DNA of 64,000 nt, taken from positions 1,054,001 through 1,118,000 of the forward strand of contig NW_024881586.1 of assembly GCF_019059575.1 (NCBI RefSeq). Direction: 5' to 3'. This document shows positions 1 to 62,204 of this stretch, in pieces. A model generated the notes under the pieces. The model was not told the DNA's origin and did no database searches. It saw only the letters and a program-made list of their open reading frames with translations. Every line of letters starts with the position of its first letter. Positions within the stretch are counted from its first letter, which is position 1. The position numbers and the translations under genes are program-made. This stretch comes from Amphibalanus amphitrite. Lineage: Eukaryota; Arthropoda; Thecostraca; Balanomorpha; Balanidae.

Positions 1-8845
<8,845 letters not shown>

Positions 8846-9524: not shown

Positions 9525-12500
9525 TCAGCGTGAATATTCTCGATTCCACCAGGCACCATCGCTCAGATCAATACCCATCTCCCGTCCAATAGGTGCGCGA
9601 TGAGTGCATAGCACGATGAGTCCCCTGAACAGGTACCCTGCCGCCATGGTAAGGAACCCCTGCAGGACCAGCCACATGCGGCAGCGTGTCTGGAGGTCGT
9701 GCAAACACCACACGAGGCCTGGTATACACGACCCTCGGCCGAGTATACACCACCCTCGGGCGAGAGTACACCACCCTCGGGCGAGAGTACACCACCCTCG
9801 GCCGAGTGTAGGTGACGCGTCGCTGCGTGCGGCTCCGACTGGTGCCCAGACCAGGAGTGATCTCCGACTCTTCGGCAGGGGAGGCGCGTACTACTGTCGG
9901 GAGCACGTGAAGCATCTCGGAGGGGAAGCGCATGATGCCGGGGACGACCTCCGAGTGGCCTGGCTGAGGAGGAAGGACGGCTGGCGGCGGCAGGTTGGCA
10001 CGCACTGGGTGGTGTGTCTGTTTCGTCAGCACGGAGAGTACCGACTCCGAGCCGCGCTGGTCTTCAGACTGAGCCGGAGCGGCAGGTCTCTCCGGAGGCT
10101 GCTGACCTCTGCCTGCTGCGGGCTGACGCTGGCTGAAGAGCTGACCTCCGGAAGAGCCGCTTCTTCGCTCCTGCTGCTGCGATGACAGGGCGGTTTGCGT
10201 TTCTCTGGGTGGCCCCGATCGGCTGGCTGCATCGTGCGAAGCATGAGTCTGCGGAGGAAGATTAGCCACGGGCATTGGGTCCAGCCCTTCACCGTGGAAC
10301 TTCTCTGCCGCGTAAAACTGCAGCAGAAAATCGATAACCTCGTACGTGTCATACTGGTCTCCGACGAAGCAGTACGGACACAGTTTCCTGTCGGGGAACT
10401 GGCGTTTGGGGTGCAGCGGGTCTTCCGTGACGTCTCCGGCGATACGGCCGTTCACTCTGTTGTGGGCACGCCACAGCCACAGGAGTGAGTCTTCCGTCGA
10501 AGAGACGTTGAACAGACCGTCTTCGGCGGCCATCTGCTGGAAATGCTGTAAAAGAAATGAACAGGGTCAGAGGGAGAATCAAGACTTAAGGCAAGAAGAC
10601 AAGAAAGATTTCAGGACACAGTCGCTCTTCAAACGCGATAGGCGATGGGAGACAGCTATTCGGTCCCTATCCACAGCAACTCACCCTAGAGCAGTGCCTG
10701 CAGCTGAAGAAGTGTTTGACGTATCCGTGGACAGCGGGCAGCACTGTAGCATTCCTGCCCTCCGGAACATTGCGCAGCTCCTGCACAGTCAGCGAGTGGA
10801 ATAGCGTCCAGAGGCCGCAGCTGTAGCCGCGATAGTTGGGCCGCGAGCCGCGACACGCCTGGTACGGCTGCAGCTCCGGCAGGCCGGGCCACCACGGCGA
10901 GGAGGACTTGAGGAGCCTCTCCAGCGCCTCCCCGGAGATCCGCTCCGGACCGGTGATGGAGCCGAGCACCTGCTGAAGCGAGCTCATCAGGTGACTCCGG
11001 CCCGGGAACAGGTCCAGCAGCATGCGCAAGAACCCTCGGAGCGCCTCCAGAGCCTCTCCTTCGATCACGTTGTGGCTAATGACCTCCTGCTTCAGCGCCA
11101 CGACGATCGCGTTCTCCATGTCGACCATGAACACCTTGTCTGCCGGAGCGCGAGTTGGCGCAGGCGTCGGCGCCGGAGCAGCCGTCGAAGCGACAGTGGT
11201 CGAAGGGATATCCATGAGGCCGATGTTCCGACGGATCACAGCGCTGAACAGGGCCCTGGGGTCCTGGCCAGGTTTGGCGGTCACCAGCTCCTGGGAGCCG
11301 TCCGGACGCATGAGCACCAGCGCAGGTAGCGAGCTCGGTTTTTGGGTGAGGTCGGCCGGTAGGTGCGCGGTCCGAGAGACGCGCACAAGGTGCTGCTGCG
11401 AGCTGAGGTCCAACTGAACGGAGCGGCCCATCGAGCGACCGACCTCCTCCAGAATCAGAGCCTGCAGGGGCTCCGGGTTCCGCAGAAGCTGTCGCGCCGA
11501 GCCTCTGAGGGAACGAAGTCTCGGTCAGTGATTCGAAGATCAGTTAAGGCTAACTGGTGATGGCTGGGTTGCCTAAACATGTAAGAAAAAAAAACTATGC
11601 GGAACTTCATCATTCCATCGCAATAAATTAGACTGAGACCAACACGTAGGTAAAGTACCTACACACTGAACGAAATCTACAAAGTGAAGCATAAGCTCGT
11701 CTTTTTTCACAAAGCTATGAATATCGAGCAGCTCTGATTCCAGTACCTACACTAAGGACACACAGAAGGTGCAGACGGCGATGCCGCCTCAACACTTCTC
11801 GAAGCGCCACTCACCTGTGTTCGGTCAGGGTCGGCCAGCCCTCGGGCTGCTGCCGGCTCTGGATGGTGGTGACGAACTCGATCAGGACCCCCACCATCCG
11901 ATCTGGATCGTGCTGGATCCCGGAGAGGCCGGGCATGCCGCGCCGCACCCGCGGCCCGAACAGCCGCACCTGTGGCACCCCGTGGATGCCGAACGTGCGG
12001 CAGATGGCGCTGTTGCGGCGACGCGCGCAGTTGATGGCGCCCACTTTGATCACGGTGCCCCAGTCTGGAAAATGGGACACGGTTAACCCGCGCCCTGGTG
12101 GGGTCTGTTTATAACGCGACCTGGTGGGGGGGGGAGGGCTATTTTTTGCCCCCCCTCGTATCTCCGAAACTACTGGACGGATCCGCAAAATTCAAACGGC
12201 GTTCGAAAGGCCTGTCAAATTTGTCGAGGAAATCCAAATTTCATTGACCTCGGGGTCACCGATGACGTCACAGGTCAGGTCAAAGATGAAATGTTTCACC
12301 GTTCACGGGTCTTCTAGGGAATGCGCTATAACACCGAGGAAAACGCATTTTGTCGAGAATCAGCCATAGGGCGTCAGTTGCCTAGTAGATATGTGGCTAT
12401 TAGAGGTCACTGACAATACCAGGTCACGTCACAGGTCAGGTCACCAAGGGTCACAGGTCAGGTCACATGAGCCCAACTTTACTAAGGTTGTGTGATGCAT

Positions 12501-13795
12501 GTTTTATGGCCAATTTTTCATTTCCAACTCAATGGTGTTGGTTATAAGACTACCAGGTCACTTTCTGGTGAAGTTCAGGTCAAGGTCAGGTCAAGGTCAG
12601 GCCAAAAAAGGTCAAATTTTAAAGTTGATAGTTTTGCATAAAATGGGTATTGATTCGATGCAGCTCGTCACGGGGAGTCTAATGGTGGTCTTTGTTTTGC
12701 GCTACGGGGTCTAGAATTGCTAAAAATTGAGTTTGAAAATTTGACGTCATCAATTTTGAACAGTTTTTTCGCTATAACTTCGCCAAAAAAAGAGGTACCA
12801 ATCTCAAATTTGGTATGTACCTAGATAGAAGGCGTTAGGGACTATCACGTATGTTCCGGTTTTTTCGAAATTCAAAAAACTTTTTGGATTTTTTGGCTAT
12901 TATATTTAAAAAATGTATTTTTTGATTTTTTGGAGTCAAATTCCAAAACATTCAAAAATCCGAGATAGCAGTTTTGTAGCCCTGTCAATTCTACAGCTTT
13001 TAAGACCTTATCATTTTTCTGTATTTGCAAAGCTATAGGCCTGACAGCTCTTCCCGCGAAACCCTTTTTTGGGTCGAAAACGGCAGAACATGACGTCACT
13101 CTGACGTCATTTCCGGCCAACCTATCATAGCCTTTGGAAAAATGTTTGGTCACCATGTGTAAAATTGATGTCCGGGAGGGTACTGAAAGTTTGGTGACGA
13201 TCGGCGCAGCGGTTCTGGAGATATATCGAAAAGTCTGGAGGGGGGGGGGCAAAAAATAGCCCCCCCCCCCACCAGGTCGCGGGTTAAGAACCCAGACGAT
13301 AGGGATCTCGGGTTCAGAGAACGATGGGGCAGCCTACTTGTACTTACTTGCATGGTTCTCAAAATGAAGGTCGAATGCTGAGATTTCAGTAAACGATTGT
13401 TAATAAGACTAGTCATGAAATACTTAAATTGCAAACTTAAATATTCACGTTTTCTGTTCGCGCATTTCTCGAATTCTCGAAACAGTGCTCGAATGTGTAC
13501 ATGGAATCAGTCCCGGACGATCGGACATTCGCCCACCTTTGGCCCGGCGTGCCACCTCGGACCAGATGGGTGCAAACCGCTGACAGTGACCGCACCAGTC
13601 CATATAGAACTCCATCGCCCAGGCGTGTGGCTTGTCCAGCAGCGCGCCATAGAACGTCACGTTGTCCAAGTGGACCACGTGGGGGTCCCCCTGGTAGAGG
13701 TCGACCCTCGCGGTGCTGATGCCACCTCCCTGGGTGAGGACTGGTGCCGCCAGGGCTGCCAGTCCGGCCAGCGTCAGTAGGGGGACGCTGAGCAT
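9525..13795 (-). CDS. QSOX: Quiescin sulfhydryl oxidase (flavin-linked disulfide generator)
   Basis: QSOX oxidises protein thiols to disulfides in the secretory pathway, passing electrons from a thioredoxin site through an Erv/ALR FAD centre to oxygen. Exons on the minus strand: 13537-13795 (ATG at 13795, signal peptide MLSVPLLTLAGLAALAAPVL, thioredoxin motif WCGHC), 11815-12064 (DWGTVIKVGAINCA, CRTFGIHGVPQVRLF), 10685-11504 (helix-rich linker, then YRGYSCGLWTLFHSLTV and CRHC) and 10545 to about 9568 or 9525 (HFQQMA, WLWRAHNRVNGRIAGD FAD-binding region, C-terminal CPYC). All junctions are GT-AG and in phase. The C-terminus is uncertain: a membrane-type helix (WLVLQGFLTMAAGYLFRGLI) lies at about 9600-9680 in a different frame from the exon 4 reading that stops at 9568. 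A small final intron or an indel in the repeat at 9721-9806 would explain this. Confidence 0.9.
9721..9806 (-). repeat. 21-bp coding minisatellite in QSOX tail
   Basis: About four to five units of a 21-bp repeat encode YSRPRVV or YTRPRVV in the exon 4 frame, between the Erv/ALR domain and the putative membrane helix. As the unit is a multiple of three, copy changes keep frame, but a one-base slip would move the helix in or out of frame. Confidence 0.85.
12083..13287. mobile_element. TTAA element, long end on left, in QSOX intron 1
   Basis: TTAA lies at both ends (12083-12086 and 13284-13287). The left end reads TTAACCCGCGCCCTGGTGGG, then 27 bp, then CGACCTGGTGGGGGGGGG. The right end, reversed, reads TTAACCCGCGACCTGGTGGG straight into the G-run. 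Inside each end lies GGGCTATTTTTTGCCC. The interior is dense in AGGTCA half-sites near 12240-12620 and has a TGACGTCA-type site near 12265. There is no transposase, so the element is non-autonomous. The TTAA duplication suggests a piggyBac-like or similar enzyme. Confidence 0.85.
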
Positions 13796-13826
13796 GGTGA
13801 GACACCTGTGGAAAGAGATGGAGATG

Positions 13827-13988
<162 letters not shown>

Positions 13989-15563
13989 CGAAGACCCGAC
14001 CGTCGCCGTCTAGCCGTTAGGCTTTAAGCACAACTGTCGAATAACGATAGTATTGGCAAAGTAGCCCGAATTATGACCCTGCGAGAAGTAATAGGGATAT
14101 GAAATATAGGTAAAATCTTTACCTGCAAGAACTTATTGACAACGTTGATAGCGAAGCTTTCTGTGGTGCTGAGTCGTTTAAAGGAAAAGGGCCACCTTTA
14201 ACATGGGGATTGAAACTGAGATAGCCCGTGTCCGAAAACCTAACTGTCTACCTCCTTACGGCCGATTTCGGCCTCCATTCATAGTTATCGGCAATTTTAA
14301 AAGAAAATACGCTAGGAATGCGTCCTTATCCCAGGAATGCGTTCTTATCCGACAATACAGCCACCCGCGGCGAGGCTTTGGTTTTTTACCAATCAGCTCC
14401 AACCAGCTCAGCTTTAACCCGCGCCCCACTGGGGGGGGGGGCTATTTATAGCCCCCCTCCCGTTTTTCTGCAATAACTTCCAAACCGCTTGACGAATCGA
14501 CGCCAAACTTTCAGTACCTTCGGCTGCATCAATTTGACACCTTGTGTCAAAATTTGAACTTCGTAGCTACTATAGGTCGGCCGGAAATGGCGTCAGAGTG
14601 ACGTCATGTTCGTCCGATTTCGACGCAAAACATTGAACCACGGCAATCGCTCCCAAGAGCTCAGTTTTTAAGCTAGATCCAATTTCTTTGCATGAAAGAA
14701 CTCAGAATTGACCGCGCTATCAAACTGCTATCTCGGATTTTCAAAATTTTGAAAATTTCGAAAATTTTATATAATAATATTCAAAATTTATTTTTTTATA
14801 TTTTTTTCAAAAAGTTTTTGACTTTTCGAAAAAACCGGAATATATGTGACAGAACGCATGATTATGACTAATTCTAGCAAGTTTTAGCTAAATATCTTCA
14901 AAAATGGCCAAGTTATACGCATTATTGCAAAAAATTCACAATTATTAATTTTTCAAATTAATTTTTCAGTACGTATTTGGCATCGTACACCAATATAAAT
15001 GGCATCATCGTGTTTCTGAGCTCAAACTGCATCCAATAGACACCTTTTTTGTTGAAAAATTTCAACTTCAAAATTTGACCTTTTTTGACCTGAAAGTGAC
15101 CTGACCTAAGCTAATTTCGACTCAAAATGACCTTGAATGACACAGACGACATCAAATTCGAAATCTATGGCGTAAATGGACCATAAAACATGTGTCACGT
15201 GACCGACCCATGATATAATATTTTCGTGACCTGTGATGACCTGACCCTGACCTGAAAATCAAAGTACAAGTTTGGTACCCTCAAGGTATCTAGAGCATCT
15301 GTTCACGAGTGTGGAAACCAAAAATGAGCCTGATCTGACTTGTAAGACGGCGGCCAGAGCCCAAAATGTGAACAAGCCAAAGTGCTAATAATTTTTACTT
15401 TGACCTGACCTGTGACGTCATCGGTGACCTCGATGTCAATGAAATTAGGTTTCGCTCGACAGTTTTTCCGGGGCTATCAGACGCCGTTTGAATTTTGACG
15501 ATCGGCCCAGTAGTTTCAGAGTTAGGAGGGGGGGCTATGAATAGCCCCCCCCCCCCCCCCAGT

Positions 15564-18525
<2,962 letters not shown>

Positions 18526-18835
18526 CCCCCCAGTAGGGCGTGTTATACACAGACCCCAGTGGGGCGCGGGTTAACCAATCAGCTTATCTGACACAATCCG
18601 ACGAGTCTGTCTTCTGAACGCTGATTGGCTTGAGTGTGACGTCATCGCTATGCCATCATACAGTAGGTGCCGTAGAGAGTATCAACATAGTACCAATATG
18701 TTAAATAGTTTTGAATACTTTTTCGCGAATTGTGCACTTCTGGCACCAGTTTTAAAAAGAAAATGAAAAATAATAATGTCAAAATGAAAAACAATGATAT
18801 CTTCATATTTCACGAAGGTGGCCCTTTTCCTTTAA

Positions 18836-20917
18836 ATTTTTTGCTTGTTTTGTTCAAAGATGATGGATTTGTGCGTCTAGGATGGCCGAATCGGGTCAGG
18901 TCAGATCGGGTCAGGTCAGCGTCAGCATTTGTTCGCTGCATAGAGATGTAACTATAACATCCTATTTCTCGGAAGTCAGCGGTGCTGCTGTGATGTCATC
19001 ATTTAGATGACGTATCTGGTTTGATGGAACGCACACGGCCGGAGCAGACAGGGCGGTGACGTGTCTCTGTATTCACAGAATGTACATACTGTGACACGGC
19101 TTCTGCGCATGGCTCCGCTATGCCTCCCCTCCCACCATTACGAAGAAAGACCTCTCTACCTCCTCCCCGAACCCAGAAGCTAGCATAATATTGAACGATA
19201 GGGACCAGCCGTGCCAGTGTCTTGCCGTCACTGGCACTAATTCAGTTTTTAGAGCAATGTCCGGTAAGCTCTCCTCATAAATCGCAATGTAACGGAGACG
19301 TAAGGAAGGGAAAAGGAGAGACCAGCTACTGTAACTCGAGATGGGCGTTTTTCGTTGCAGGACCCAAGCGTCTGCCGTCTTTGGACATAAATAGAGCACA
19401 CAATACGGTTTGACTGTTGAATACGGTTTGACTCCGATTTTGGCATTAGAGAAGCTACAGTTATATGCTTTTATTAATTCCTGTATTGTTGCCTGTCTTG
19501 AAGCACCACTATACAATTCATCATCGATGAACGACCGATTTAGAGGCACACAGCTTTTGTTTATGCGGGGTATTCAGTTTTTTAAAACAGAAGAACATTA
19601 TTAAACCAACAGTGTTTTTATGTATTGAACACAAACCTTGGGTTCCTACAAGCACCAGTTGACCGTAAGAACGTTAAACCGTTAGCCCGACCGACCATTT
19701 ATACCTATATGGGCCGTTTCATGCTCAAAATGCTGCATTTTTTTAACGAACTTCCACATTTTATAGTTCCTTACATGGCCGTGTTGATCTAAAGCATGCG
19801 GACCAGTCAATGAATAAGTGCAAGCAAGGCGATATTTCAGAATTTGCTTTTGTTCGATAGATAATGGTCTAGACAGTAAGCGTAAAAAACAGCCATAACT
19901 TGAAGCTGCATTTTTACTGGCTTGTGGGAGACGTGTTTACTGAGAAAACATCTGTCAGAATACGCTGTTGCTATGCGATATGATACAAAAAGTGCAAAAA
20001 GTTTGAACTTCTGTCCCTGGGCATGATTTGCCGACCTTTGTAAATACCACTCTAAGAGCATGCATATTGCATAACAAAAGTTCAAATAACAAACGGTTAG
20101 CAACACAGCGATTTCGGTTATCGAAGAAGCGTCTATGCTATTATCCTATTTTCAACCGCCTCTCATCCCGAAATACGCTGGATCACAAGTGTTATGTAAC
20201 GATATGTAACAATTAGCTCTGATACTGACAAACGAACCGTCGCAGCCTGACTACAGAGAATTGGATATTTAGCAGTCGGACTTATGATGAACACCAGACC
20301 CTAGTGCCGTATACGGGGAGTGGAAACGGGAACCGAATGTTTGGGGTGTGTGCCGCAGTGCCAGACACGATGTCCGGCAAATGCAATACGATGCTCTCCG
20401 TGCATTTTAAAACCCTGTTTAGGTGTTTATGCATGCGTCAAGTAGTTTTAAACATGCCTGCACTGAAAACACTTTGGAAGAACGTTTAGAACGTACAGTG
20501 GTATTTAGACCCCTGTGGGGTAAAATGTTATGCCACCGTTTTTCAGAACCCCCATGGCTCTTCACGTAGACGGCTTTGCATTCTCATCAAAAGAATCCAC
20601 ACGATTCTTCCAAAGACTCTTATGAGGTTTAGGGTTTATAATAAGAGCGTTCTTAGCACCTAGATAAGAACCCCAAAGGATCTGTGAAGAAGTCCCTGAG
20701 GTTTATAGGGAAACCACCCTGTGTTCTGAATATCGGTTGTAGAACCCTTTCAGTTCTATTGCAATACCGCAAAATCCCCGTTCATTCGTCTATTGAACCT
20801 CCCATGCATGGCTATCGACCTGCGCCGTCACATCTGCTGCGCAAACACAGTACTTGATACACCTTAAAATGTATTACCTTCCTCTTTACTCTGAGCAATC
20901 AGCCTGCAAGTCTCCAG
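18836..20917. other. No supported gene; possible CACTA-type end
   Basis: Short frames only, the longest being 143 codons on the minus strand at 19118-19549 without a recognised family. Repeated AGAACCC/GGGTTCT words at 20550-20760 and a CAGTG at 20493-20497 could be the subterminal repeats and tip of another CACTA-type element, but I found no partner end. Confidence 0.3.
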
Positions 20918-21012
20918 TCAGGAACAACCAGCCCGCAACCAGCCCATGCGATCAGCCCGCAACCAGCCCGCATTCAGCCCATGCGATCAGCCCGCAATCA
21001 GCCTGCAGGAAC
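20918..21012. repeat. Short minisatellite, CAGCCCGCA-type units
   Basis: Tandem, imperfect units built of CAGCCCGCAACC and CAGCCCATGCGAT. It adjoins the end of the unknown minus-strand exon at 20952-21345. Confidence 0.8.
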
Positions 21013-21345
21013 GCTTTCCATTCGGCCGTGTCACTTGCCTTACCCATCCAAGCCAAAGAACTCCAGAGTCCAGAGCCAAATATGAACACATTTTTAGCTT
21101 TAGCAAGTGGATGTTTTCCCAAACACAGTATGTATAGCGCTATCGCCCATGTCAGCAGCCGGGTGGCGATATCGCATTCTCCCAAATCACATACAGTTTC
21201 TCCTTCCACCACCAGCTTCAAGCCAGCGTTTTCGACGATGTCGACGTCTCCGCGCGCCAGGACGCTCTCCTCAGACTCCAGGGCCTCAATTAGAGCGGAG
21301 ATGGCCTCGTCCCCTGGAATGAAGAGTCGGGCGGATGCGTTATTC
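20952..21345 (-). CDS. Unknown exon, possibly element-borne
   Basis: A minus-strand frame opens after a good acceptor (TTCATTCCAG, near 21346) and encodes GDEAISALIEALESEESVLA, then GLKLVVEGETVCDL and LLTWAIALYILCLGKHPLAK. The pattern G-L-x-V-x-G-x-x-V-C-x-L followed by an aromatic hydrophobic stretch also occurs in the last exon of the CACTA-borne frame at 27270-27572 (GEELSVDGVVVCQLP, AAHAVFYTKF). This suggests one family of unknown proteins. The 3' end passes into a minisatellite and the true stop is unsure. Upstream exons were not found. Confidence 0.4.
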
Positions 21346-21889
21346 AACAGACAGGAAGTAAAGAAACTTAGATTGACTTCAGAAACCATGAGCCTACTCC
21401 GAAAATAAAATAATGCACTTGACATATAAAGTGCAGCTAGATAAAATATTGCACTAATCAGCAAGAACATATGTTTATCAAAATCAGCCAAATTTATGCC
21501 TAAATCAATTGACCCCAAAATGGCAAGGTGATTCTATTCCTGAATTATCTTCATTTGGAAGATTTGTCTAAATACCACATGCATAATTTAAGCTATGGGG
21601 CATTTATACAACATATAAATACTTACTGCATTGATTGGTCTTGCATATGAATTGTCTTCATCCAATGCATTCATCCATGCATTTGAAGAGCGTTGTGATA
21701 TTGCTTATTATTGTCAATCACAAGTAATATAGATAATACACAACACTTGACAAGCCAAAAATTAACCTTATTTCAGTTCTTCAATATTCGATTACTTGCC
21801 ATTCACCCAATCTTGCACCAGCCGCTCGTCACTGCACAAAGCGTGATCCAACGCGATCGAAAAATGGCGATCGCTTCCGGTGGACGCTA

Positions 21890-22690
21890 GAACGTGGTAC
21901 ACTCGGGGGCAGATTGATGTTCCACAACTCTTTATCCACCGGGTTCCTATGGCTCAGCATTGGCAGCAGCCGCCTGGTACCGGTAGACTGTGCCGCTTCA
22001 CTTACTTGTCAAGCGGCACAGCCTACCCACCTGTATGACACCGGTCTGGGTCGGTGGCTGGAAGGCGATAAGGGCCGCCTGTGACGTCAGCGCAGCGGTG
22101 AGGGCCGAGCCCGGAGGCATGGCTCGGGTCGGCGCGGCGCGGCGGCTGGCGAGGACTGGGGAGTGAGGTGGGGTGGGAGCACGGACATCGCGTGGCTGAG
22201 CGAGTGTAGTTAACTTTCGCATCTCAAGGCGCCAATTATTCTACCTAACAATTGTGCTAGAGCAGTTGTTAAAATGTCCTATCCCCAAGACAGCGTCTAT
22301 CGTCATACTTGCAATGCACATTACGACACACTTAAGCGTGGCAATGGGACAGCCGATAGAACTTATGTCACTCGTGCATCGAGGTGCGGAGCTATATTTT
22401 GTATAACATATTAGTATTAAGGCCTTGATCGAGCAGATTGGTGTCTATTGTTTCGCACGGCAATCGTCCAGAGACGTGGGAACTGGGGGTTATGAGTAGT
22501 GCCGCAGCCAACGCTCCAATTTAAAGCGATTATTACTGTTGCTCTAATATGTGGTCGCAACCTCCAATAGCAAACCGTTCCAACTAGGAGCCAAAAAGTC
22601 GGCCACTCAGGGGGGTTCGAACCGGGCTTCTCCCACCGGCCAATTCACGACACGAGCGTTCATTCACTGAGCTACCGAGAATGGTCCTCG
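21890..22690 (-). mobile_element. tRNA-derived SINE-like copy, minus strand
   Basis: Reading leftward from about 22690 there is a Pol III box A (TAGCTCAGTGAATGAACGC, 22658-22676) and box B (GGTTCGAACCC, about 22613-22623) at tRNA spacing. A long body follows, ending near 21890, that matches the plus copy at 22770-23410. At about 0.8 kb it is long for a SINE, so it may be a composite. Confidence 0.6.
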
Positions 22691-22769
22691 TCCGCACAAA
22701 ACAAAATGACATTCACCCGCTGACCGCCAATGACAGTATTGTGACCTTTGATCGCGTTTGACCGCGGCG

Positions 22770-23410
22770 GGTGGTCGCTGGTTTCGGCAGCTCAGTGGAT
22801 ACACGCTAGCGTCGTGGGGTGACCGGTTGGAGAAACCCGGTTCGAACCGTCCCAGGTGCGCAACTTATTTGTTCCTAGATGGAACGGTTTGCTATTGGTG
22901 GCTGCGACCACACATTAGAGGAACATACGAGTTGCTTTGGGACGCCGCGCTATCCAAAAACCCCAGTTCCCACGTCTCTGGACGATTGCTGTGCGAAATA
23001 ATAGACACCAATGAGCTCAATCAAGGCCTTAATGCTTTAGCACAATTGTTAGGTAGAATAAATAATTGGCGCCTTGAGACGCGAAAGTTAACTACACTCG
23101 CCCAGCCGCGCGATGGTCCGTGCTCCCACCCCACCTCACTCCCCAGCCCTCGCCAGCCGCCGCGCCGCGCCGACCCGAGCCATGCCTCCGGGCTCGGCCC
23201 TCACCGCTGCGCTGACGTCACAGGCGGTCCACATCGCCTTACAGCCACGACCCAGACCGGTGGCATACGGTGTGGGTAGGCTGTGCCGCTTGACAAGTAA
23301 GTGAAGCGGCACAGTCTACCGGTACCAGGCGGCTGCTGCCAATGCTGAGCCATAGGGACCCGGTGGATAAAGAGTTGTGGAACATCAATCTGCCCCCGAG
23401 TGTACCGCGG
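22770..23410 (+). mobile_element. tRNA-derived SINE-like copy, plus strand
   Basis: Box A (CAGCTCAGTGGATACACGC, about 22788) and box B (CCGGTTCGAACC, about 22846) lie at the head. The body repeats, inverted, the copy at 21890-22690, including a GC-rich stretch and the tail TGCCCCCGAGTGTACC. The tRNA-like heads differ more than the bodies, arguing for two insertions rather than one fresh foldback. Confidence 0.6.
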
Positions 23411-27572: not shown

Positions 27573-27781
27573 AACCAGCATCGGAGATGCCCACTTCGAA
27601 TGACTGGCGACCTGTGGCTCACCTGTGGTTCAAGTGACTCGTGACTTGTGGCTCACCTGTGGCTCAAGTGACTCGCAACGTGTGGCTCACACTACTGGAG
27701 CCTATGTATTATGACTAATTCAGCTGCGGCGGTCTCAGTACGCCAATGAGTCTCAGCTTACGTCTTTCATAGCTCAGATCA

Positions 27782-27931: not shown

Positions 27932-27963
27932 ACGCCCTTGTGAGTTGTGACCTTGAACGTCCT

Positions 27964-31064: not shown

Positions 31065-33811
31065 ATGAGTAGACTGTGTGACCTGACCTGCGGGTCGCCC
31101 TGTTACCTCCGGTGGCCTGTGGTGCGCATTGTGGTGCTATCAGTCGTAGGTGTCTTTATGTTTTCCCTGCTGACGAGAGTTCGGTCCAATGAACGGTGAG
31201 TTGACGGATCAATGCGATGGTGGGTTGCAGCAAGGTTTGAAAAGCTTGGAATTTCTGCTAGGTCGTGCATTATTGTGCATATTCTGTTCTCACACTGAGC
31301 AGCCTTCACGATGAGTGATCATATGTGTTTTAGATCGGGGTTCACCGTTAAATTATGTTTTATGTTTTAGATCTTTGGGAGGGAACGTTTGACTAGATGG
31401 TTTAGAATGTGGAGTTATTTTATTTGGATAATGATGTTTTGGATAATGAAGTTATTTAGTTCGGCTATTTGTCTTAGATAATAAAGTTATTTAGCTCTGC
31501 TATATCGACACCCTTTTTTAAACCCCACATTTGTTCTCCCGTGAATTTCAGACAAGTTGTTTAGAAAGCTTCAAAAAAGGTACAGTCACTCGATTTTTCT
31601 CAAGTTTGTCTGTCTTGGCAGATCAAGCAATGCCAGAGCAAGCTTACGAACACACAAATTTGATCAGGATCGGACGATTGGACACTTCTAAAAAGAGATC
31701 TTTCTTGCTTCCCGGAAATTCACCGGAGAACAGATGTGGGGTTTAAAAAAAGGTGTCGATATGTTTTAGGCAGGGCAGTTAAAGGGACCCTCCCACCTTC
31801 AAAAAAGTTGATGAATTGGCACGAACGTGATGTCGCTCGGTTCAGAAAGAGCAAAAACGAATATCTACCAAATTTCATCGAAAAATATTTACCGGTTTTC
31901 AAGATATTAGACTTACTTTTGTTTACTTTTTGGGATCTCCGCTGTTCCTAGCGACTTTATTTGAAAGTGCGGCATTTGTTGCGCGCAAAGCAGCATATAC
32001 CACCGCGTGCTACAAAACGTTTTAGTCAAACATTTAACGGACGTTCGAAAGCCTGATGACGTCATCAGATTCCCGTAATGGTTAAGAGATAGGGACCACG
32101 CTGGTCCCACCCTGCAAGTAAAGGGAAGAAATTTCTTGAACACCATAAAGCTGCGGGGGTTGCGACCAGGATAAATGGTGGTTTCTGAGCCTGGCCGCAA
32201 ACTTGGCTATCTCAACTCAAAACTAATGTTAAGGTGGGAGGGTCCCTTTAATAAGTTCGGCTACGTGTTATATATCGAGAATGACGGTTCGACTATTTTT
32301 CTTTATATCGGAAGTGACCGATCGGCTAAATGTTTATGATTGCTGAGTGACCGTTTGGCTATAGGCAGGCGCGGATACAAGGGGGGGGGCCATGGGGGCC
32401 ATGGCCCCCCCCCCCTTGGCCGATTTTTTCAAAAATAAAATAAAAAGTTAAAAAGTTAAAAAGCTGAAAAGGGGGCCTCCTGAAAATAAAGTAGCCGAAA
32501 TCCGATGAGTTTTTTTTTTTTAACCTACCCACTTAGTTATTTCTTAGAAGACTAGCTGAGAAGACTTCTTTGTTAGAAGATTGGTAAAGCTTTTCATAAC
32601 TTGGAGGTCTCTTATACTCACAGAGATGACCACTTTTACAGGGCCTCCTAACCTGCACAGAGGGCCTCCAAGCCTGCACAGATGTTGAGATGTTGCCTGA
32701 ACAGCTAGATAAGCTCAATAGACGCAGTTTTTTTTGGGGGGGGGGGCCCAACAAGTGGGAAGATGGGGCCTCCAACAGGTGGGATTATGGGGGGGGGGCC
32801 TCCTGGTTTCTAATGGCCCCTCCCTTGGAGATTTTCTGGATCCGCCCCTGGCTATAGGTACATACCTATGTCTGTTATTGGAGGTGATTATTCAGATATG
32901 TTTTAGAGCAGGCTCTCTGTCAGTAGTCGGTCAGTTTCTTACATGCTTGATGTTTTAGAGCTATGTTTAGAGCAAATTTAACATCAATCTGGCTGTGCTC
33001 AAATATTTCAGAACGCCGTGTGAGTGACCGTCCGTCTCCATGTTTCAGAACTCCCAGGCCAGTACCGTTGTCAGCGCCGCTGGGAGCAGAGACACTGGTC
33101 GGTGCCGTGAACTCTGTGGAGGCGATGAAGGCGCTCTACAATTACCTGGAGCACCCGCAGCATTGCTGCCGCGATCTGCGACCTTTCGGCGGAACCCCAG
33201 GTCACAGCGACGGCTCAAAGATGGTGTGTATGGACGCGGAGGTCGCACCGCCGCCCGGCTCCTGTCTCGCGTACTCCTTCGGTGTGGCCAACGATTGGAG
33301 TTTTGACCGAGCTATGTATGAGAACGGGTGCGAGGTGCATTCGTTTGACCCCAGTGTGAACCACACCGAGGGTCGCACGCCATTCGGGCCCGTCTTCCAC
33401 CGCCAGGGTTTGTCGGGGGACGAGAACACCACCCGTGAGGATGGCTGGATCGTGATGACTCTGGGCGACACAATGGATAGCCTGGGTCACGGGGACCGCA
33501 CGCTTCACTACCTCAAAGTGGACGTGGAGGGTGCTGAGTGGACCTGGCTGGACGCAGAGCACGAGGAGGTACTGAACCGCGTCCGTCAGCTGGCCATGGA
33601 GGTTCATTTCCTCGAGCTGCAGCTGTTTGAGACTGAGGAAGATCTGTTTGAGGTCCTGGATGCGTACATTACGTCGTTCGAGCTGTTGCGCAGCCTGGGT
33701 TTCTGTCTGGTGAGTGTTAGTGAAAACCCCATCAACCCAGGCCGTCGTGTGATGCCCAGATGGGGGGAAGAGAAGGCGACGCTCTTTGAAGTGCTGTGGG
33801 TAAAACGGTGA
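31065..33811 (+). CDS. METTL24: METTL24-like membrane-anchored methyltransferase
   Basis: Two exons, 31065-31195 and 33049-33811, joined in phase (GAACG|GTGAGT to TTTCAG|AACTCC), give 297 residues. Exon 1 starts at an ATG in good context and encodes a short N-terminus, then the signal anchor VVRIVVLSVVGVFMFSLL, so a type II Golgi or ER membrane protein is likely. Exon 2 carries the FkbM/Methyltransf_21-type fold: CLAYSFGVANDWSFDRAMYE, then GCEVHSFDPS for SAM binding, and HYLKVDVEGAEWTWL, the hallmark of METTL24-type proteins. The methyl acceptor is not known for this family. A Penelope-like element begins about 18 bp after the stop, so the 3' UTR must be short or element-derived. Confidence 0.85.
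31779..32251. mobile_element. TTAA MITE, copy B, in METTL24-like intron
   Basis: Complete 473-bp copy: TTAAAGGGACCCTCCCACCT at the left and its inverse (AAGGTGGGAGGGTCCCTTTAA-type) at the right, both with TTAA. Near-identical to 7793-8265, so the family moved recently. Confidence 0.85.
32366..32850. mobile_element. hAT MITE with 8-bp target duplication
   Basis: The ends are CAGGCGCGGATACAAG and, reversed, CAGGGGCGGATCCAG, typical hAT tips. The 8-bp duplication GCTATAGG lies on both sides (32358-32365 and 32851-32858). G-runs and C-runs lie inside both ends. No transposase is seen. It lies in the METTL24-like intron. Confidence 0.85.
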
Positions 33812-35717
33812 TTTTGTCAGGGTATATTAATTAGTAGGTATGCTATTAATAACCTTATGCTCATATTAGTAATTATATTCAAAAAGAAAAGTAAAAATTA
33901 ATATATTTCGACTTGCGCCTTCATCAGAATATGAGATCAATTTGTCGACACACGAAATAAAACTAAGACGATTCACTGAGTACAAACGTGCATAAATAAA
34001 CGGTGGCCTTCAATTCAAGATTAGGGTTACACATTTAGTAGGTCGAAATTCTATCATCATCATAGGTGTACATAAATAAACACAACATGACAGTCAATAA
34101 AACTGAACACGTATAATACATATTTAACACTTTGTAATACATATTTATAGAATGATATATAGTACATACAAGTGAATATGATACATAACAGTGAATATGA
34201 TACATAAAGAATGTCATATAATATACATACATGAGACAATACATCATACATATAATGCATAAATACAATACCAGGTATGTTAAGTACAATACGAAATACA
34301 TATATGGTACATAGAACAGGATACATATTTACATCGTATACCAAAGTATTTAAGTATGGTTCGTCGCAGAGGAGCCATGTGTATATGCTGGTGGTCTGAG
34401 GAGGGGCCAGGATGACGTGTGTGTGTTTAGAGAGGGTTTTTGGTTCCGAATTTCAATAGATTCTGATATCTTAAGGTCCGCTACGTCTTTGCACACTCGC
34501 TCGATGGAAATTTTGAATGACCGTGCAGTTATGTTGCTGGATGGGTGCTGCTGTGCCACATGGTCGCCGAGAGGTGTGTTGCGAGTTTTGTTTTTGGCGT
34601 TTCTGATGTGTTCGTTAAAACGATCCCGGACACGTCGCTTGGACTCTCCTACGTAAACTGCTGGATTGTCGGTGCACATGTTACACTCAATTTTGTATAC
34701 AGCGTTCTTTGTGTGACAACGACCCTCAAGTCCCGCTTCGCAGGTGGAACAGCGCCTTTGACCAGCCGGACAGGGAGGGCTCTGTAGAGCTGATTTGGTT
34801 AAGTACTGGGTCAGTGTCTTTCCACTGGCCCAAGCAACACGGGCCTGTAAGCCTGAGGACTTGAACACCCCCTCTACCCGGCGGGCCAAAGTGTCATCAA
34901 TGTAAGGCAGTGATACGTATGTAGTGTCATGCTTGTTTTTGATGTCTCTGTTCGCTTTCCTAGCTGATGTCCTAGTGTTGTGGCCTGTGGTGTCGCTAAT
35001 GACTCTGTGTCTGGTTCTCTGTATGAGTCGATGTGGGTATCCATTGTGCTTGAACAAAGTTTCGATTATGTGCATGCCGCGGTTCTGTGCTTCTCTGTTT
35101 GACCCTAACCGTTTGGCTCTGAGGAGTTGCGAGTAGAGCACCGAGCGCTTGCACTGAATGGGATGTGCTGAGTTGAAGTGGATGATTATGGGTGCTGCCA
35201 TGGGCTTAATATAAAGCTCTGTGCTGTACGTGCCATCGTTCTGGACAGTGATGAGTGTGTCTAGGAATGGTATTTGTTGAGTAGGAGTCTGGTCTGATCT
35301 CTCGATGGTAGGGTGAATAGGTCAAAAACGCCCCCAGTAAGCGCGAAACCTTCTGACACTCAACCCAACCCAGATTACTCAAACCTTTGGGCACCATCAT
35401 GTAGCTCATTCTTTTTACTACGCTTTGAGACCAAGAAAAGACACTTGCGTGTGGTATTTAACCCCCCAAAAAGGTTTCCGCATACCCTTACAAAAGGGCG
35501 TTTTGCCCCACACCCTGGGTAATACGCCCACACCCATGTGCAAAGCGCCCCCACCCCATCCATCAACAGAGAAAATGATGAACATGGCAGAACTTGACGT
35601 CATTCTGACGTCATTTGTGGTCAACCTATCATAGCCTTTGGAATAAAATGTTGTTGCAATGTGTAAAATGGATGCCCGAAGGAGTCCTGAAAGTTTGGTG
35701 ACGATATCTGCAGTCGT

Positions 35718-36901
35718 TTAACCCGCGCCCCACTGGGGGGGGGCTATTTATAGCCCCCCCTCCCGTTTTTCTGCAATAACTTCCAAACCGCTTGACGTAT
35801 CGACGCCAAACTTTCAGTACCTTCGGCTGCATCAATTTGACACCTTTTGTCAAAATTTGAACTTCGTAGCTACCATAGGTCGGCCGGAAATGACGTCAGA
35901 GTGACGTCATGTTCGGCCGATTTTGACGCAAAACATTGAACCACGGCAATCGCTCCCAAGGGCTCAGTTTTTAAGCTAGATCCAATTTCTTTGCATGAGA
36001 GGACTCAGAATCGACTGCGCTATCAAACTGCTATCTCGAATTTTCGAAATTTTGAAAATTTCGAAAATTCTATATAATAAAACTCAAAATTTACATTTTT
36101 ACATTTTTTTCAAAAAGTTTTTGACTTTTCGAAAAAACCGGAATATATGTGATAGAACGCGTTATTATGAATAACTCTAGCAAGTTTTAGCTAAATATCT
36201 TCAAAAATAGCCAAGTTATACGCATTATTGCAAAAAAATTCACAATTATTAATTTTTCAAATCAATTATTCACCACGTATTTGACATCGTACGCCAATAT
36301 AAATAGCACCATCGTGTTCCTGAGCTCAAACTGCATCCAATAGACACCTTTTCGGTTGAAAAATTATAACTTCAAAATTTGACCTTTTTTGACCTGAAAG
36401 TGACCTGACCTAAGCTAAATTCGACTCAAAATGACCTCGGATGACACAGACGACATCAAATTCGAAGTCTTTGGCCTAAATGGACCATAAAACATGTGTC
36501 ACGTGACCGACACATGATATAATATTTTCGTGACCTGTGATGACCTGATCTTGACCTGAAAATCAAAGTACAAGTTTGGTACCCTCAGGGTATCTAGAGC
36601 ATCTGTTCACGAGTGTGTGAACCAAAAATGAGCCTGATCTGACTTGTAAGACGGCGGCCAGAGCCCAAAACGTGAACAAGCCAAAATGCTAATAATTTTT
36701 ACTTTGACCTGACCTGTGACGTCATCGGTGACCTCGAGGTCAATGAAATTAGGTTTCGCTCGACAGTTTTTCCGGGGCTATCAGACGCCGTTTGAATTTT
36801 GACGATCGGCCCAGTAGTTTCGGAGTTAGGAGGGGGGGCTATGAATAGCCCCCCCCCCAGTAGGGCGTGTTATACGCAGACCCCAGTGGGGCGCGGGTTA
36901 A
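35718..36901. mobile_element. TTAA element, long end on right, uninterrupted copy
   Basis: 1184 bp, TTAA at both ends. Short left end TTAACCCGCGCCCCACTGGG; long right end with the extra TCTGCGTATAACACGCCCTA segment. G-run, CTATTTATAG and C-run hairpins lie inside both ends. It is nearly identical to 14414-18574 minus its insert. Direct and inverted AGGTCA words cluster at 36380-36560 and 36700-36750. Confidence 0.88.
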
Positions 36902-37789
36902 CCCTATTAGTGGCAGGCTCCTGGTATACCCCTATTAGTGGCAGGGGGGGGGCTGTTTACGACCCCCCCTTGATATCTCGAGATCTAACGGGCCGATTTT
37001 CAAAATTCAAACGGCATTCGATTTCGCTCAACGTGATCTACATTTCTAAAAAATAAAAATTAAAATATGTCAACAGGGGGGGGGGTAGAGGGGGGTAAAA
37101 ACGGGCAAATTGCAGATACATTTTTGACTGTTTATCACGGCCAGGTTTCTGAACCAATCCTAACGCAACTTTTGCCGATCGATAGAGAATGAACCAGGAA
37201 TTCACATGGATCCTAAAAATATGCATTTTCAAAAATCATAGGCGGATACAGATCATTGAGATTGGGGGTACACAAAAAGTATAGTAAATAAGGTTTTTGT
37301 TGGTACTGTTTCTAAAAAGGGTGGTAATGGTCTTGTTATGTTACAATTTTCTTATGAGAGAACGACTACAATTGTATTGGTCATGCATAGGCGGTGTCAG
37401 GGCACCTATGTTGGGAGGTAAAACATAACCCCCCTTTTTGGACGCCTGGATCCGCCTATTATAGCAAAAACGTGTCAAAAGAGAATGCACAATAACTGTA
37501 TATGTTATCACATGTATACCTTTCATTCACTGTTCGTAAAACTGGTGCAGCATCGTGATCTTCGCCCAAATGACTCGCTTCACGAATAGGACCCCCAATT
37601 CCCAGTGCTCTGGAGCCGCCCCTGGTAAAGTTATGAACTTGAAATTTTCAGGGAATAAGCCCAATTTAGTTTTAGGAAAAGTCAGAAAATTTCAGCATCG
37701 TAGCTTCAGCGGTTTCGGAGATATTCCCGAAAAACCTGAGGGGTGGATAAAAACAACCCCCCCCCCTGCCACTAATAGGGGTCGTTTAA
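36898..37789. mobile_element. TTAA element of a second subfamily, long end on left
   Basis: It starts TTAACCCTATTAGTGGCAGG, then repeats CCCTATTAGTGGCAGG about 28 bp further in before the G-run. The right end, reversed, is TTAAACGACCCCTATTAGTG then GCAGG and the G-run. It shares TTAA 36898-36901 with the neighbouring element, so one landed in the duplicated site of the other. Within it, AGGCGGATACAG (about 37231) and CTGGATCCGCCT (about 37446) look like tips of a nested hAT-type MITE. Confidence 0.75.
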
Positions 37790-39346
37790 GATGTATCAGC
37801 AAAAAAGGACAGGGAGAGGCCTTTTCGGCCCCGACCTACAGGGCGCTACCCTGCACTCTCACCACCGTGCAAAACGCCCCCCTTTCAGAAAACTGGGGGC
37901 GTCTTGCCCCATGCATCGAGTAGGCGTCTTTCCCCATCCACTCCATTTCCGGTCAACAAAATATTGACAAAAAACGCGCCACTAACGCCACAGCATAATA
38001 AATTCAACAAAATGACAATAAAACGCAGTTTTGAGTGATGTGCACAATAGCAAGTTTTGTGATATAAAAAGGGAATCAAAAGCTTAGGAATCTTCTGTAA
38101 AAACAACAAAAACAACACCCAAAACCAACATCAGCACCTACCCACGCTGCTCCTCAAGACGCAGAACCGGAAATAGAGAACTACGTAAACAAGCAGCTGA
38201 CTGTTCTGAAAGACAGGATAAAACACCTATCCGCCGATAAGATCTACGATTTTTTTAGGGGAGGCGTTTAACCCAGGGGTGCGTTTTCCCCACAGTTACC
38301 CTAAACTTTAGCGCTGGGTGAAAGTTGTTGAGAAAATGAAAGTACTCATCAAGTTTTTCTGGTCCGTGTGTCCAGACCCCCAGCACATCATCGATATAGC
38401 GCATGTATATTACAGGCTGGTACTGCGCGGCGGGTGCGGTCAAAAGCAGTGACTCAATGGCGTCCATGAATACAATAGCCAGGGGTGGGGCTACCCTTGA
38501 TCCCATCGCCACACCCACGGTCTGTTTAAAGTACTTCTCCCCGAATCGAACATAGTTGTTGTTTAGGCAATGGGATAGAAGTGTCTCTATATCTTGAAGA
38601 CTAAGTCCAAATGTATTTATCTGATCTTTGTGTCTTTCAATGAGTTTGATGGTGGCCTGAATGGCTTCATCAGTGGGGATATTCCCATACAGATTTGCCA
38701 CATCCACGGAAAATACTATTGCTCCTGCTGGGAGTTTGTTAGGGAATTGTGTTTTTAGTCGCTTTAGGTAGTCCTGTGTATCCGTGAGGTGCGCAGGAAC
38801 AAACATTAACAGCTGAGTGATAATCCTTTCGAGTAGCCATGTCAGCTTGTCAAGTGGGTCCCCACAGGCAGAAACTATGGGCCGGAGCGGCGCATCTGGC
38901 TTATGCGTCTTAGGGAGACCGTATAGCTCAGCAGTACGAGTTCCGGATGGGACGACACTTTTCAGAACCTTTTCGGGGACCTTCCCTGTTAAAGTACTCT
39001 TCACTAGCCTTTTGGTTTCAGCTTCTAGCTTAGGGGTGGGGTTCTTGTCGATCGCTTCATACCCTGCTGTAATGGTTTGGGCTTTTTCCATATAGTCACT
39101 CTTTGACATCACTACTAGGCCTTTGCATTTGTCTGATCGTTTAATTACAAGGTCCGGGTCTTTGCCTAGCTCTCGAAGTCTACTTAGGTCACATTTCTGA
39201 TGGTTGGGCTGCTGTTGAGTTTTGTGGTTTTTATATATAGTCATCACTTTGTTTTTTACAACTTTCAGTGTGTGTTCAATATTGCCATCAGCAGTGGGAG
39301 CCGCTTTAGTGTCAGTATCACTGAATCGTGGAATTGATGATGCCAT

Positions 39347-41190
39347 GATGAAGCCATTCAGGCCACCATCAAACTCATTGAAAGACACAAAGATCAGATA
39401 AATACATTTGGACTTAGTCTTCAAGATATAGAGACACTTCTATCCCATTGCCTAAACAACAACTATGTTCGATTCGGGGAGAAGTACTTTAAACAGACCG
39501 TGGGTGTGGCGATGGGATCAAGGGTAGCCCCACCCCTGGCTATTGTATTCATGGACGCCATTGAGTCACTGCTTTTGACCGCACCCGCCGCGCAGTACCA
39601 GCCTGTAATATACATGCGCTATATCGATGATGTGCTGGGGGTCTGGACACACGGACCAGAAAAACTTGATGAGTACTTTCATTTTCTCAACAACTTTCAC
39701 CCAGCGCTAAAGTTTACCATCGAGAGATCAGACCAGACTCCTACTCAACAAATACCATTCCTAGACACACTCATCACTGTCCAGAACGATGGCACGTACA
39801 GCACAGAGCTTTATATTAAGCCCATGGCAGCACCCATAATCATCCACTTCAACTCAGCACATCCCATTCAGTGCAAGCGCTCGGTGCTCTACTCGCAACT
39901 CCTCAGAGCCAAACGGTTAGGGTCAAACAGAGAAGCACAGAACCGCGGCATGCACATAATCGAAACTTTGTTCAAGCACAATGGATACCCACATCGACTC
40001 ATACAGAGAACCAGACACAGAGTCATTAGCGACACCACAGGCCACAACACTAGGACATCAGCTAGGAAAGCGAACAGAGACATCAAAAACAAGCATGACA
40101 CTACATACGTATCACTGCCTTACATTGATGACACTTTGGCCCGCCGGGTAGAGGGGGTGTTCAAGTCCTCAGGCTTACAGGCCCGTGTTGCTTGGGCCAG
40201 TGGAAAGACACTGACCCAGTACTTAACCAAATCAGCTCTACAGAGCCCTCCCTGTCCGGCTGGTCAAAGGCGCTGTTCCACCTGCGAAGCGGGACTTGAG
40301 GGTCGTTGTCACACAAAGAACGCTGTATACAAAATTGAGTGTAACATGTGCACCGACAATCCAGCAGTTTACGTAGGAGAGTCCAAGCGACGTGTCCGGG
40401 ATCGTTTTAACGAACACATCAGAAACGCCAAAAACAAAACTCGCAACACACCTCTCGGCGACCATGTGGCACAGCAGCACCCATCCAGCAACATAACTGC
40501 ACGGTCATTCAATATTTCCATCGAGCGAGTGTGCAAAGACGTAGCGGACCTTAAGATATCAGAATCTATTGAAATTCGGAACCAAAAACCCTCTCTAAAC
40601 ACACACACGTCATCCTGGCCCCTCCTCAGACCACCAGCATATACACATGGCTCCTCTGCGACGAACCATACTTAAATACTTTGGTATACGATGTAAATAT
40701 GTATCCTGTTCTATGTACCATATATGTATTTCGTATTGTACTTAACATACCTGGTATTGTATTTATGCATTATATGTATGATGTATTGTCTCATGTATGT
40801 ATATTATATGACATTCTTTATGTATCATATTCACTGTTATGTATCATATTCACTTGTATGTACTATATATCATTCTATAAATATGTATTACAAAGTGTTA
40901 AATATGTATTATACGTGTTCAGTTTTATTGACTGTCATGTTGTGTTTATTTATGTACACCTATGATGATGATAGAATTTCGACCTACTAAATGTGTAACC
41001 CTAATCTTGAATTGAAGGCCACCGTTTATTTATGCACGTTTGTACTCAGTGAATCGTCTTAGTTTTATTTCGTGTGTCGACAAATTGATCTCATATTCTG
41101 ATGAAGGCGCAAGTCGAAATATATTAATTTGTACTTTTCTTTTTGAATATAATTACTAATATGAGCATAAGGTTATTAATAGCATACCTA
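39347..41190 (+). mobile_element. Penelope-like element, plus-strand copy, 5'-truncated
   Basis: It starts abruptly inside the reverse transcriptase region, back-to-back with the minus copy. A frame runs from the start to 40675 with GVAMGSRVAPPLA, YMRYIDDVLGVW, IPFLDTLI and the GIY-YIG endonuclease (AVYKIECNMC...VYVGESKRRVRDRFNEH). About 0.5 kb of AT-rich 3' tail follows, ending at GCATACCTAATAATTA. Such head-to-head partial copies are common in this family. Confidence 0.88.
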
Positions 41191-43987: not shown

Positions 43988-60485
<16,498 letters not shown>

Positions 60486-60990
60486 CTGAAACAGAAGCGA
60501 AACCAGTTCGCGTGAGAATTGTGTTTTAAAAGGTTGAAATCGACTAAGGGTGCTGTGCCTCGGTGTATTCGTATGGTGTAGCGCTGGAAGAATGGTTGCT
60601 GTCATTGGCAGACAAGTGGGCGTGCAGATGGTATTTTAACCGGACGGTACCTGAAGTACGTTACAGTGTTTGAAAGTGCAATTGAAGATGGATGAGTGGA
60701 GTTCAGAGTATTTAGTTGGTTCAGCGAGGAAGCTATTGCTGTTCATTTGGATGCTTCGTCGATGTTTAAGTCGGTAAATGGCTAAATACTTTGGTCGAAG
60801 GATGGAAATGCTCAGTTGGATCGCTGAGCAATATACGATGCTGGAGCAAAACAGCAACCATAGAGCAACATTTGATTGCAGACACAACGCTCCCCTTTTC
60901 CACCAGCGTGCTTTTATACCTATGGTGGAGTTGAAACATAATAGTTAGCCATCAGCTGTCTGGCTTCGCCCTAACCGTTTAGGCCCCAGC

Positions 60991-62204
60991 TTAACCCGGC
61001 ACCGCCTGGGCTATTTCCGTACCCACGACAGCCTGGGGGGGGGGGGGTCGGATCCGACCCCCCTGTTATCTCGAGAACCAATGGTCGTATCGAGCCCCGC
61101 GAGGCGGCGTTCGAAAGGTCTCTACGAGACCTTCCCAAAGCACTCTTAAGATTTTAAGATTGAGGTCAACTTTCGGGTCAAGGTCAGGTCAAAGGTCAAA
61201 TTCAGGGGTTTTGCATGATTAGGCTTACGGACATCGGAATCGATAGCTGCTGCTCGAAACTCACCAAAAATGACCTCAAAGGCCTAGTGAAGGTACCATG
61301 TGTGTATAGGGGTCATACTAAGTACGGGTCAAGGTCAGGTCAGGTCACGAAAGGTCACGGTTTTCAATTTCTGCTACATGGGCGTGCGACACATGTTTTA
61401 TGGCTTATTTTTCACGCCGAATCCGATGGTAATGGTTATATGTGACCCCAATTCACTGTGCTGGTGAAAAGTGTGCATTGAAAGCATAAAAAATCGTTTA
61501 TACTATACGAGGGCTGAGAAAAAAGGTCAATTTTTCAACTTTTTATTTTTGACATCAAAATGCACTTTTCTAGACGAGCTTTGTCCCAGGAATCTAGTGG
61601 TGCCATTTGTTTTCACATGCGATGTTCAGAAGTACCTCTAATTCACGAAAATGCTTATGACGTCACCATGCCCTATACATGTTGGAGTTATTTTTTACAA
61701 TTTGGGGGTCAAAAATCAAGATAGAAAGTTGAAATTTGGGGCATCAAATGTTCTAATAGAGCTCTACAACATATACTCCGGTTTTTTGGAAATTCCCAAA
61801 ATTTTGGATTTTATTAGCTGTTTTCCAAAAAATAAAGTTTTTTGAATTTTTAGGGGTGCAAAACGCATTTTAAGGAAAATCCGAGATAGCCATTTTAAAG
61901 AACTCGTTGAGCTGCGTCTTTTGATGTCCTTAATTTGCATTTTGCTTTAAACCCTGATTTTTGGCGATTTTTTAAACATTTACCACTTTTTGACTAAAAA
62001 CGCCATGTAGTTACATCACTAAAATCGATATATCTCAATTTTTTTGGAAATTTTTTCTTAAAAATTGCACAGGAGACATCAAATTGATGGGGGAGAAGGT
62101 ATGCCAAGTTTCAAGTAGATAGCGAAAGTGGTTCATGAGTTATTCAAGAAAAACGGAGGGGGGTCGGATCCGACCCCCCCCCCCCCCAGGCGGTCGCGGG
62201 TTAA
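60991..62204. mobile_element. TTAA element with GGATCC-centred end hairpins, in Sema1a intron
   Basis: TTAA lies at 60991-60994 and 62201-62204. Long left end: TTAACCCGGCACCGCCTGGG, then 28 bp, then GCCTGGGG and the G-run. Short right end, reversed: TTAACCCGCGACCGCCTGGG. Each end has a G-run, TCGGATCCGA and a C-run, a near-perfect hairpin. AGGTCA words cluster at 61160-61200 and 61325-61355. There is no transposase. Confidence 0.85.

Follow-up and report, generated by a model that had tools for sequence, protein, structure and literature searches.

A 64-kb window of the Amphibalanus amphitrite genome (contig NW_024881586.1) was found to carry five complete transposon-like elements, A to E, each of which starts and finishes with TTAA (Table 1). 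The ten element ends use nine TTAA sites, C and D being adjoined with the TTAA at 36898-36901 in common. B and C were 95% identical across 1143 bp and thus constitute one family, giving four families in total, namely A, B/C, D and E. The lengths of A, C, D and E were 892-1214 bp, and B is longer than its relatives because an element of 2962 bp is nested inside it. As far as the scanned open reading frames (ORFs) show, the elements are non-coding, and A, C, D and E have the shape of miniature inverted-repeat transposable elements (MITEs), that is, they are short, non-coding and bounded by terminal inverted repeats. Together with the five copies, the 64 kb holds a probable degraded long end.

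Direct analysis confirmed the boundaries, the anatomy and the presence of a single long end in each element. An earlier note, made from the sequence alone, had listed five complete elements at coordinates that all held, with TTAA at both bounds, and had assigned the long end to one side, never both, which was borne out in 5/5 (left in A, D and E, right in B and C). Its five elements are indeed five copies, although they represent four families rather than five distinct kinds. The common plan that it described, with TTAA followed by a tip, a box, a G-run, a spacer or palindrome and a C-run, was recovered overall and departed from at the right end of D, where 4-5 additional bases lie ahead of the box. 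Meanwhile, the extra segment, given there as 27-30 bp, did prove to be a partial copy of the tip, but its size needed revision, since the inner copy was offset by 26 bp in A, B and C, 28 bp in D and 27 bp in E. The note had passed over four features treated below, namely the probable degraded long end at 2211, the A-like relic at 35580-35705, the homology of the interiors and the polarised array of AGGTCA hexamers.

Exactly one end per element carried this added partial tip copy (5/5), and the G-run began 43-46 bases after the start of TTAA in the long ends as against 17-23 bases after it in the short ends (five of each). As a control, the tip repeat was scored at offsets 22-34 for all 477 TTAA sites on both strands that are followed by 70 bases of sequence. 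The long ends of A, B, C and D scored 12-13 out of 13 and were all placed within the top 6 of the 477 sites, the remaining two of which appear to be of low complexity, while none of the five short ends scored 9 or more. None of the inner copies retained TTAA (0/5); the bases at the corresponding position were TTAT (A), GTAT (B and C), ATAC (D) or CGTA (E). No TTAA was present in bases 5-60 of any long end. The tips themselves start with CCC at nine of the ten ends and with ACG at the short end of D, CCCG being present at the eight ends of A, B, C and E and CCCT at the long end of D alone. Furthermore, a relaxed end pattern (TTAACCC, G6, C6) gave 10 overlapping matches in the window, every one of them at element ends (dinucleotide shuffles, 0/100), and picked up half of the ends (A short, B short, C short, C long and E short).

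Table 1. Coordinates of the elements, their ends and associated relics in the window
Feature	Position	Strand	Remarks
Probable degraded sixth long end	2211..2451	+	TTAG replacing TTAA; tip CCCGCGCCCCGGTGGG; G-run spaced as in the long ends
Element A, complete, long end left	12083..13287	+	Between thioredoxin-domain and FAD_SOX-domain ORFs of QSOX-like gene
A long end, outer tip	12083..12103	+	TTAA and box
A inner box copy	12113..12129	+	Offset 26 bp, TTAT replacing the TTAA of the tip
A G-run / CTATTTTTTG core / C-run	12126..12155	+	Behind inner copy
A short end	13240..13287	-	TTAA, box, G-run, same CTATTTTTTG core, C-run
Element B, long end right	14414..18574	-	Split by nested insert; family of C
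B short end	14414..14457	+	
B long-end G-run/core/C-run	15528..15560	-	Cut off from its own tip by nested insert
Nested 2962-bp element in B	15564..18525		Inverted repeats identical at 38/39 end bases; 9-bp duplication CCCCCCAGT
B long end	18528..18574	-	Outer tip at 18554-18574; inner copy 26 bp further in, at 18528-18544
A-like relic	35580..35705	+	Matches A 994-1119 at 84.6%; borders C+D on the left
9-bp direct repeat GTCGTTTAA around C+D	left 35713..35721, right 37781..37789	+	
Element C, complete, long end right	35718..36901	-	
C short end	35718..35760	+	
C long end	36832..36901	-	Outer tip at 36881-36901; inner copy 26 bp further in, at 36855-36871; palindrome GGGGGGGCTATTCATAGCCCCCCC
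Element D, complete, long end left	36898..37789	+	
D long end, G-run/C-run	36898..36969	+	Outer tip at 36898-36917; inner copy 28 bp further in, at 36929-36945
D short end	37741..37789	-	ACGA sits between TTAA and CCCC box
Element E, complete, long end left	60991..62204	+	
E long end	60991..61063	+	Outer tip at 60991-61010; inner copy 27 bp further in, at 61021-61037; palindrome at 61042-61063
E short end	62158..62204	-	Same perfect palindrome GGGGGGTCGGATCCGACCCCCC

This anatomy makes it probable that A to E are non-autonomous MITE-like transposons, most likely belonging to the piggyBac superfamily, which comprise at least four related families and in which the long end accommodates a second, non-cutting transposase dimer. 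In the mechanism we propose, the short end would offer one transposase site, composed of TTAA and a box of 13-17 bp for the transposase core, and the near-palindrome of G-run, core and C-run behind the box would be the target of a dimeric C-terminal domain. The long end would be such a short-type end preceded by an outer tip and a spacer of about 10 bp, giving two occurrences of the box at a distance of 26-28 bp. Cutting would take place at the outer copy, and the inner copy, devoid of TTAA, may by analogy seat a second transposase dimer that performs no cutting and helps to join the unlike ends; the missing TTAA at the inner copy would add a guard at the sequence level. By analogy with the studied elements compared below, we infer the transposase itself, the partition of box binding, the presence of a second dimer and a requirement for dissimilar ends.

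To compare the families beyond their ends, the interiors were aligned with the long ends set left, using 10 simple shuffles per pair. The alignments in the same orientation reached 657 for A and C (103 when flipped; shuffle maximum 85), 421 for A and E (92; 74) and 288 for C and E (97; 93), so that A, B/C and E carry homologous long ends, which descend from a single ancestral end. As for D, BLAST matched its ends to those of A and C with 76-79% identity over 58-80 bases at the expected positions, and its long end is perhaps of the same descent. Twelve boxes from A, C, D and E were then compared, B being omitted as a member of the family of C. The mean box distance was 2.0 out of 17 within families versus 9.9 between them, which was equalled by 1 of 20,000 label permutations, with the reservation that the box frames were set by hand and those of D and E lie one base off those of A and C, by which the between-family distance may be inflated. 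The three boxes of each family change jointly. The inner copy differed from the short tip and from its own long tip at 2 and 3 positions, respectively, in A, 0 and 1 in D, 2 and 4 in E, and 4 and 4 in C, and was therefore nearer the short tip in three of the four families and tied in C, the differences being small. Owing to this resemblance, the long end is readable as a whole short-type end with an extra outer tip. A single origin of the long end, as suggested by its homology in A, C and E, would also suffice if the extra segment were a neutral relic, namely, a chance tandem duplication of the tip in a founder that was inherited by all families, and the spacer is indeed alike in A and C (TCTGTTTATAA and TCTGCGTATAA). 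An idle copy should drift, however, whereas the inner box varies in step with the outer boxes, as the permutations indicated. Even though gene conversion between copies could mimic such in-step change, we consider a neutral relic unlikely.

The interiors of A, C and E also carried AGGTCA hexamers, with 14, 11 and 9 occurrences, respectively, on the strand running inward from the long end versus one on the other strand in each case (D, 0); the shuffle means were 0.3-0.5 and the maxima 3-4 for the inward strand. All 34 hexamers were located in the element half nearest the long end and arranged as direct repeats, which we take to be like nuclear-receptor half-sites.

Several points weigh against assigning these elements to the piggyBac superfamily with a double-site long end. 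All of the data come from a single window. With CCCG at their tips, A, B, C and E lie outside the CC[C/T]T hallmark (PMC2872659) and the motifs listed in PMC10813416, the cited papers being represented here and below by extracts. Whether unlike ends are required is a matter of dispute, as a hyperactive piggyBac transposase works with symmetric ends (PMC7351741). The long end of E scored only 9/13, a value attained by 53 of the 477 sites, and its tip-to-inner match is not unusual by itself; because the tip repeat alone is weak, this end relies on the match of its inner copy and palindrome to its own short end, with which they align over 45 columns. The distance from box to core shifts with G-run length. 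The interior of D aligned weakly (80 with A against a shuffle maximum of 64, 76 with C against 81, and 74 with E against 72), the ends of D, having a poor palindrome, folded no better than shuffles (z 0.12 and 0.23), and a 9-bp direct repeat lies around C+D. A DDD transposase (Pfam PF13843), encoded by the element or by an autonomous partner, is expected of the superfamily. Of the 35 ORF rows of 60 codons or more that overlap the elements, the 10 scanned gave no Pfam match, and nine other ORFs of the window gave no match to a transposase. Finally, the asymmetric ends of piggyBac reportedly inhibit transposition, to judge from the title alone of one paper, as would an inner copy that is a true transposase site and acts as a brake by capturing transposase and lowering transposition. 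An internal left-end site of piggyBat likewise restricts activity (PMC11707139). Against such a brake, activity fell to about half when the second box of piggyBac was randomised or shifted by the addition of 5 bp (PMC7351741), and piggyBat, most active with its innermost site deleted, lost activity dramatically upon further deletion (PMC13405395); a braking role thus appears rather unlikely.

The position of D deserves separate consideration. When GTCGTTTAA was taken as a duplication, the inverted repeats of D became a perfect 16-bp pair directly inside it. The simplest order of events is that D inserted first with a 9-bp duplication and C then entered the TTAA of the left copy. Simple insertion at TTAA may not apply to D, and an aberrant event at this single copy is equally possible. 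The joined flanks of C+D scored 186 against A, the left flank alone 174, and the start of the right flank was matched as well by 141 of 1000 shuffles; hence, no empty site is claimed. The 9-bp repeat around C+D and the CCCG tips of three of the four families would suit another, perhaps undescribed superfamily resembling piggyBac, in which the 9 bp are the true duplication and TTAA is a target preference. The compared flanks of B, C and E nevertheless share nothing past TTAA, and those of A share just GG, which on one side is part of the tip, and we regard such a superfamily as quite unlikely. D also contains a small MITE-like insert at 37235-37462, whose 17-bp inverted arms are 88% complementary (ATCATAGGCGGATACAG and CTGGATCCGCCTATTAT).

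The homopolymer arms of the near-palindrome were found in all four families. The palindrome was perfect in E, contained one mismatched pair in C and remained under the reporting threshold in A and D; in B, it was like that of C at the short end and interrupted by the nested insert at the long end. Folding covered nine ends, the long end of B being left out. The strongest arm pairing was observed at the short end of A (z -3.65) and the long end of C (z -3.21), and five other ends gave z values of -0.86 to -2.15. Rfam returned no matches at the gathering thresholds. Such strong arms, together with the occurrence of homopolymer arms in every family, might indicate that the hairpin itself is the signal, recognised as a single strand or a cruciform, and that the box repeat is secondary. 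The z values are too uneven among the nine ends for this, D being at shuffle level, and we judge it very unlikely. The Kolobok superfamily, which likewise duplicates TTAA and would explain TTAA at both bounds, is hardly credible, since its ends are given as 5'-RR / YY-3' (PMC9587614) and its Xenopus copies as starting with AG (PMC6004289) in the extracts concerned, which is contradicted by tips of CCC at nine of the ten ends and ACG at one.

The scans for relatives covered collections of viral and prokaryotic DNA, and little was expected from the pattern scans because of this composition. The relaxed end pattern was matched at no fewer than 120 loci, i.e., at least 120, in viral contigs and at least 120 in genome contigs; the 243 matches in the 240 loci listed were attributed to chance by eye, with no formal test, many of them being terminator-like hairpins. 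One viral contig (L001) that matched the tip pattern was likewise dismissed as chance, there being no G-run behind its tip. Among the matches listed, none was seen by eye to have these boxes or the one-sided tip repeat. No account of these elements was found in the literature searches, whose coverage mostly excluded subscription papers.

The stretch at 2211-2451 was clearly detected by nhmmer using a profile built from A, C, D and E (E-value 2.9e-6), and its G-run begins 44 bases past the start of TTAG, within the long-end spacing of 43-46. By BLAST against the four elements, its best E-value was 0.006, with 0.077 at the tip, and its inner box is indistinct, matching at 9/16 positions at offset 27, with the same score at offset 33. 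No second end for it was found in the window. We consider this stretch a probable degraded sixth long end. The insert nested in B is placed where the inner box meets the G-run; its inverted repeats start with GCGTATTTACAAATTG, and it contains, at 18220-18323, a short-end-side fragment like those of the same TTAA element group. A further arrangement of G-run, palindrome and C-run (GGGGGGGGGCCATGGGGGCCATGGCCCCCCCCCCC) was present at 32381-32415 without adjoining TTAA tips.

Element A lies inside an apparent intron of a minus-strand QSOX-like gene (10667-13801), about 20 bp off the apparent acceptor of the next exon, the splice site having been placed by eye. The ORFs of this gene in the window matched thioredoxin and FAD_SOX above the Pfam cut-off, with Erv1/Alr and QSOX_Trx1 falling short of it. 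Matches to GIY-YIG and reverse transcriptase domains were given by ORFs at 34350-35321, 38255-39439 and 39341-40675, the GIY-YIG part being present twice in opposite orientations; Penelope-like elements have such ORFs. The window also has long GA microsatellites.

A more far-reaching version of the piggyBac-type reading, which we offer as doubtful, is that a radiation of TTAA transposons within this one genome uses its unlike ends as a pairing code like the 12/23 rule, in which a single-site end has to be joined to a double-site end with an inner site that the loss of TTAA has disarmed. The families would have rewritten their three boxes and both cores into mutually exclusive end-transposase pairs, and D would have moved to a longer target duplication.

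Among the known systems, the closest likeness was to the T. ni piggyBac, with which the elements share TTAA, a CCC tip, one end with an insertion and a repeated tip box (PMC7351741, PMC10813416), and, to a varying degree, a palindromic internal site at both ends (PMC7351741); TTAA flanks A, B, C and E at both ends, and CCC is the stable part of piggyBac-family tips in one survey (PMC10813416). Behind the tip box in the left end of piggyBac (LE35) lies a palindromic 19-bp repeat to which a dimer of C-terminal domains binds, and the right end (RE63) contains an inserted stretch and a second copy of the box, bp 34-63 of the right end being nearly identical to bp 7-35 of the left end (PMC7351741). 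According to the same extracts, LE35/RE63 was the sole pair that both excised and integrated in cells with the native transposase, and the unlike ends were puzzling and enigmatic to the authors of the structure (PMC7351741). The repeat offset is 27-28 bp in piggyBac (PMC7351741), compared with 26, 26, 26, 28 and 27 bp in A to E. The present elements differ from it in having CCCG rather than CCCT (A, B, C and E) and a palindrome made of G- and C-runs, and in that no transposase was seen in the scanned ORFs. The comparison with piggyBac drawn in the earlier note is partly supported: the repeated box, its offset and the palindrome that follows fit LE35/RE63 well, while D is possibly not a plain TTAA inserter. 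Its suggestion of several transposase specificities fits the joint change of the three boxes in each family, now for four families instead of five.

The piggyBat element of Myotis lucifugus resembles them in TTAA, unlike ends and repeated units of box plus palindrome, and has an inner non-catalytic dimer (PMC11707139, PMC13405395), a binding mode that aids synapsis and guards from internal cleavage (PMC13405395); in these extracts it differs by having three units at 44-bp spacing on one end and no such palindrome on the other. The coral CMITE are also several TTAA MITE families with differing tips and common interiors, linked to piggyBac-like transposons, but are about 100 bp long, and a one-sided tip repeat is not described in the extract available (PMC2872659). 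Group IV of the piggyBac-like elements, which includes piggyBac and PLE-wu and is a class based on end-repeat layout with multiple internal repeats, is similar by description (PMC8086355), and a search for inner inverted repeats in invertebrate piggyBac-like elements allowed for arms of 5-15 nt and spacers of 2-10 nt (PMC12324416). In the extracts cited, the evidence on unlike piggyBac ends has so far come from one insect and one bat element. Four diverged natural families that retain one single and one double end, alter their boxes in step and lack TTAA at every inner copy would argue, on evolutionary grounds, for an inner site that is in use and has to stay uncut, and would supply separate end specificities for cross-reaction tests. 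The elements thus present a known design in new sequences, with four families keeping the asymmetry of their ends while the sequence differs.

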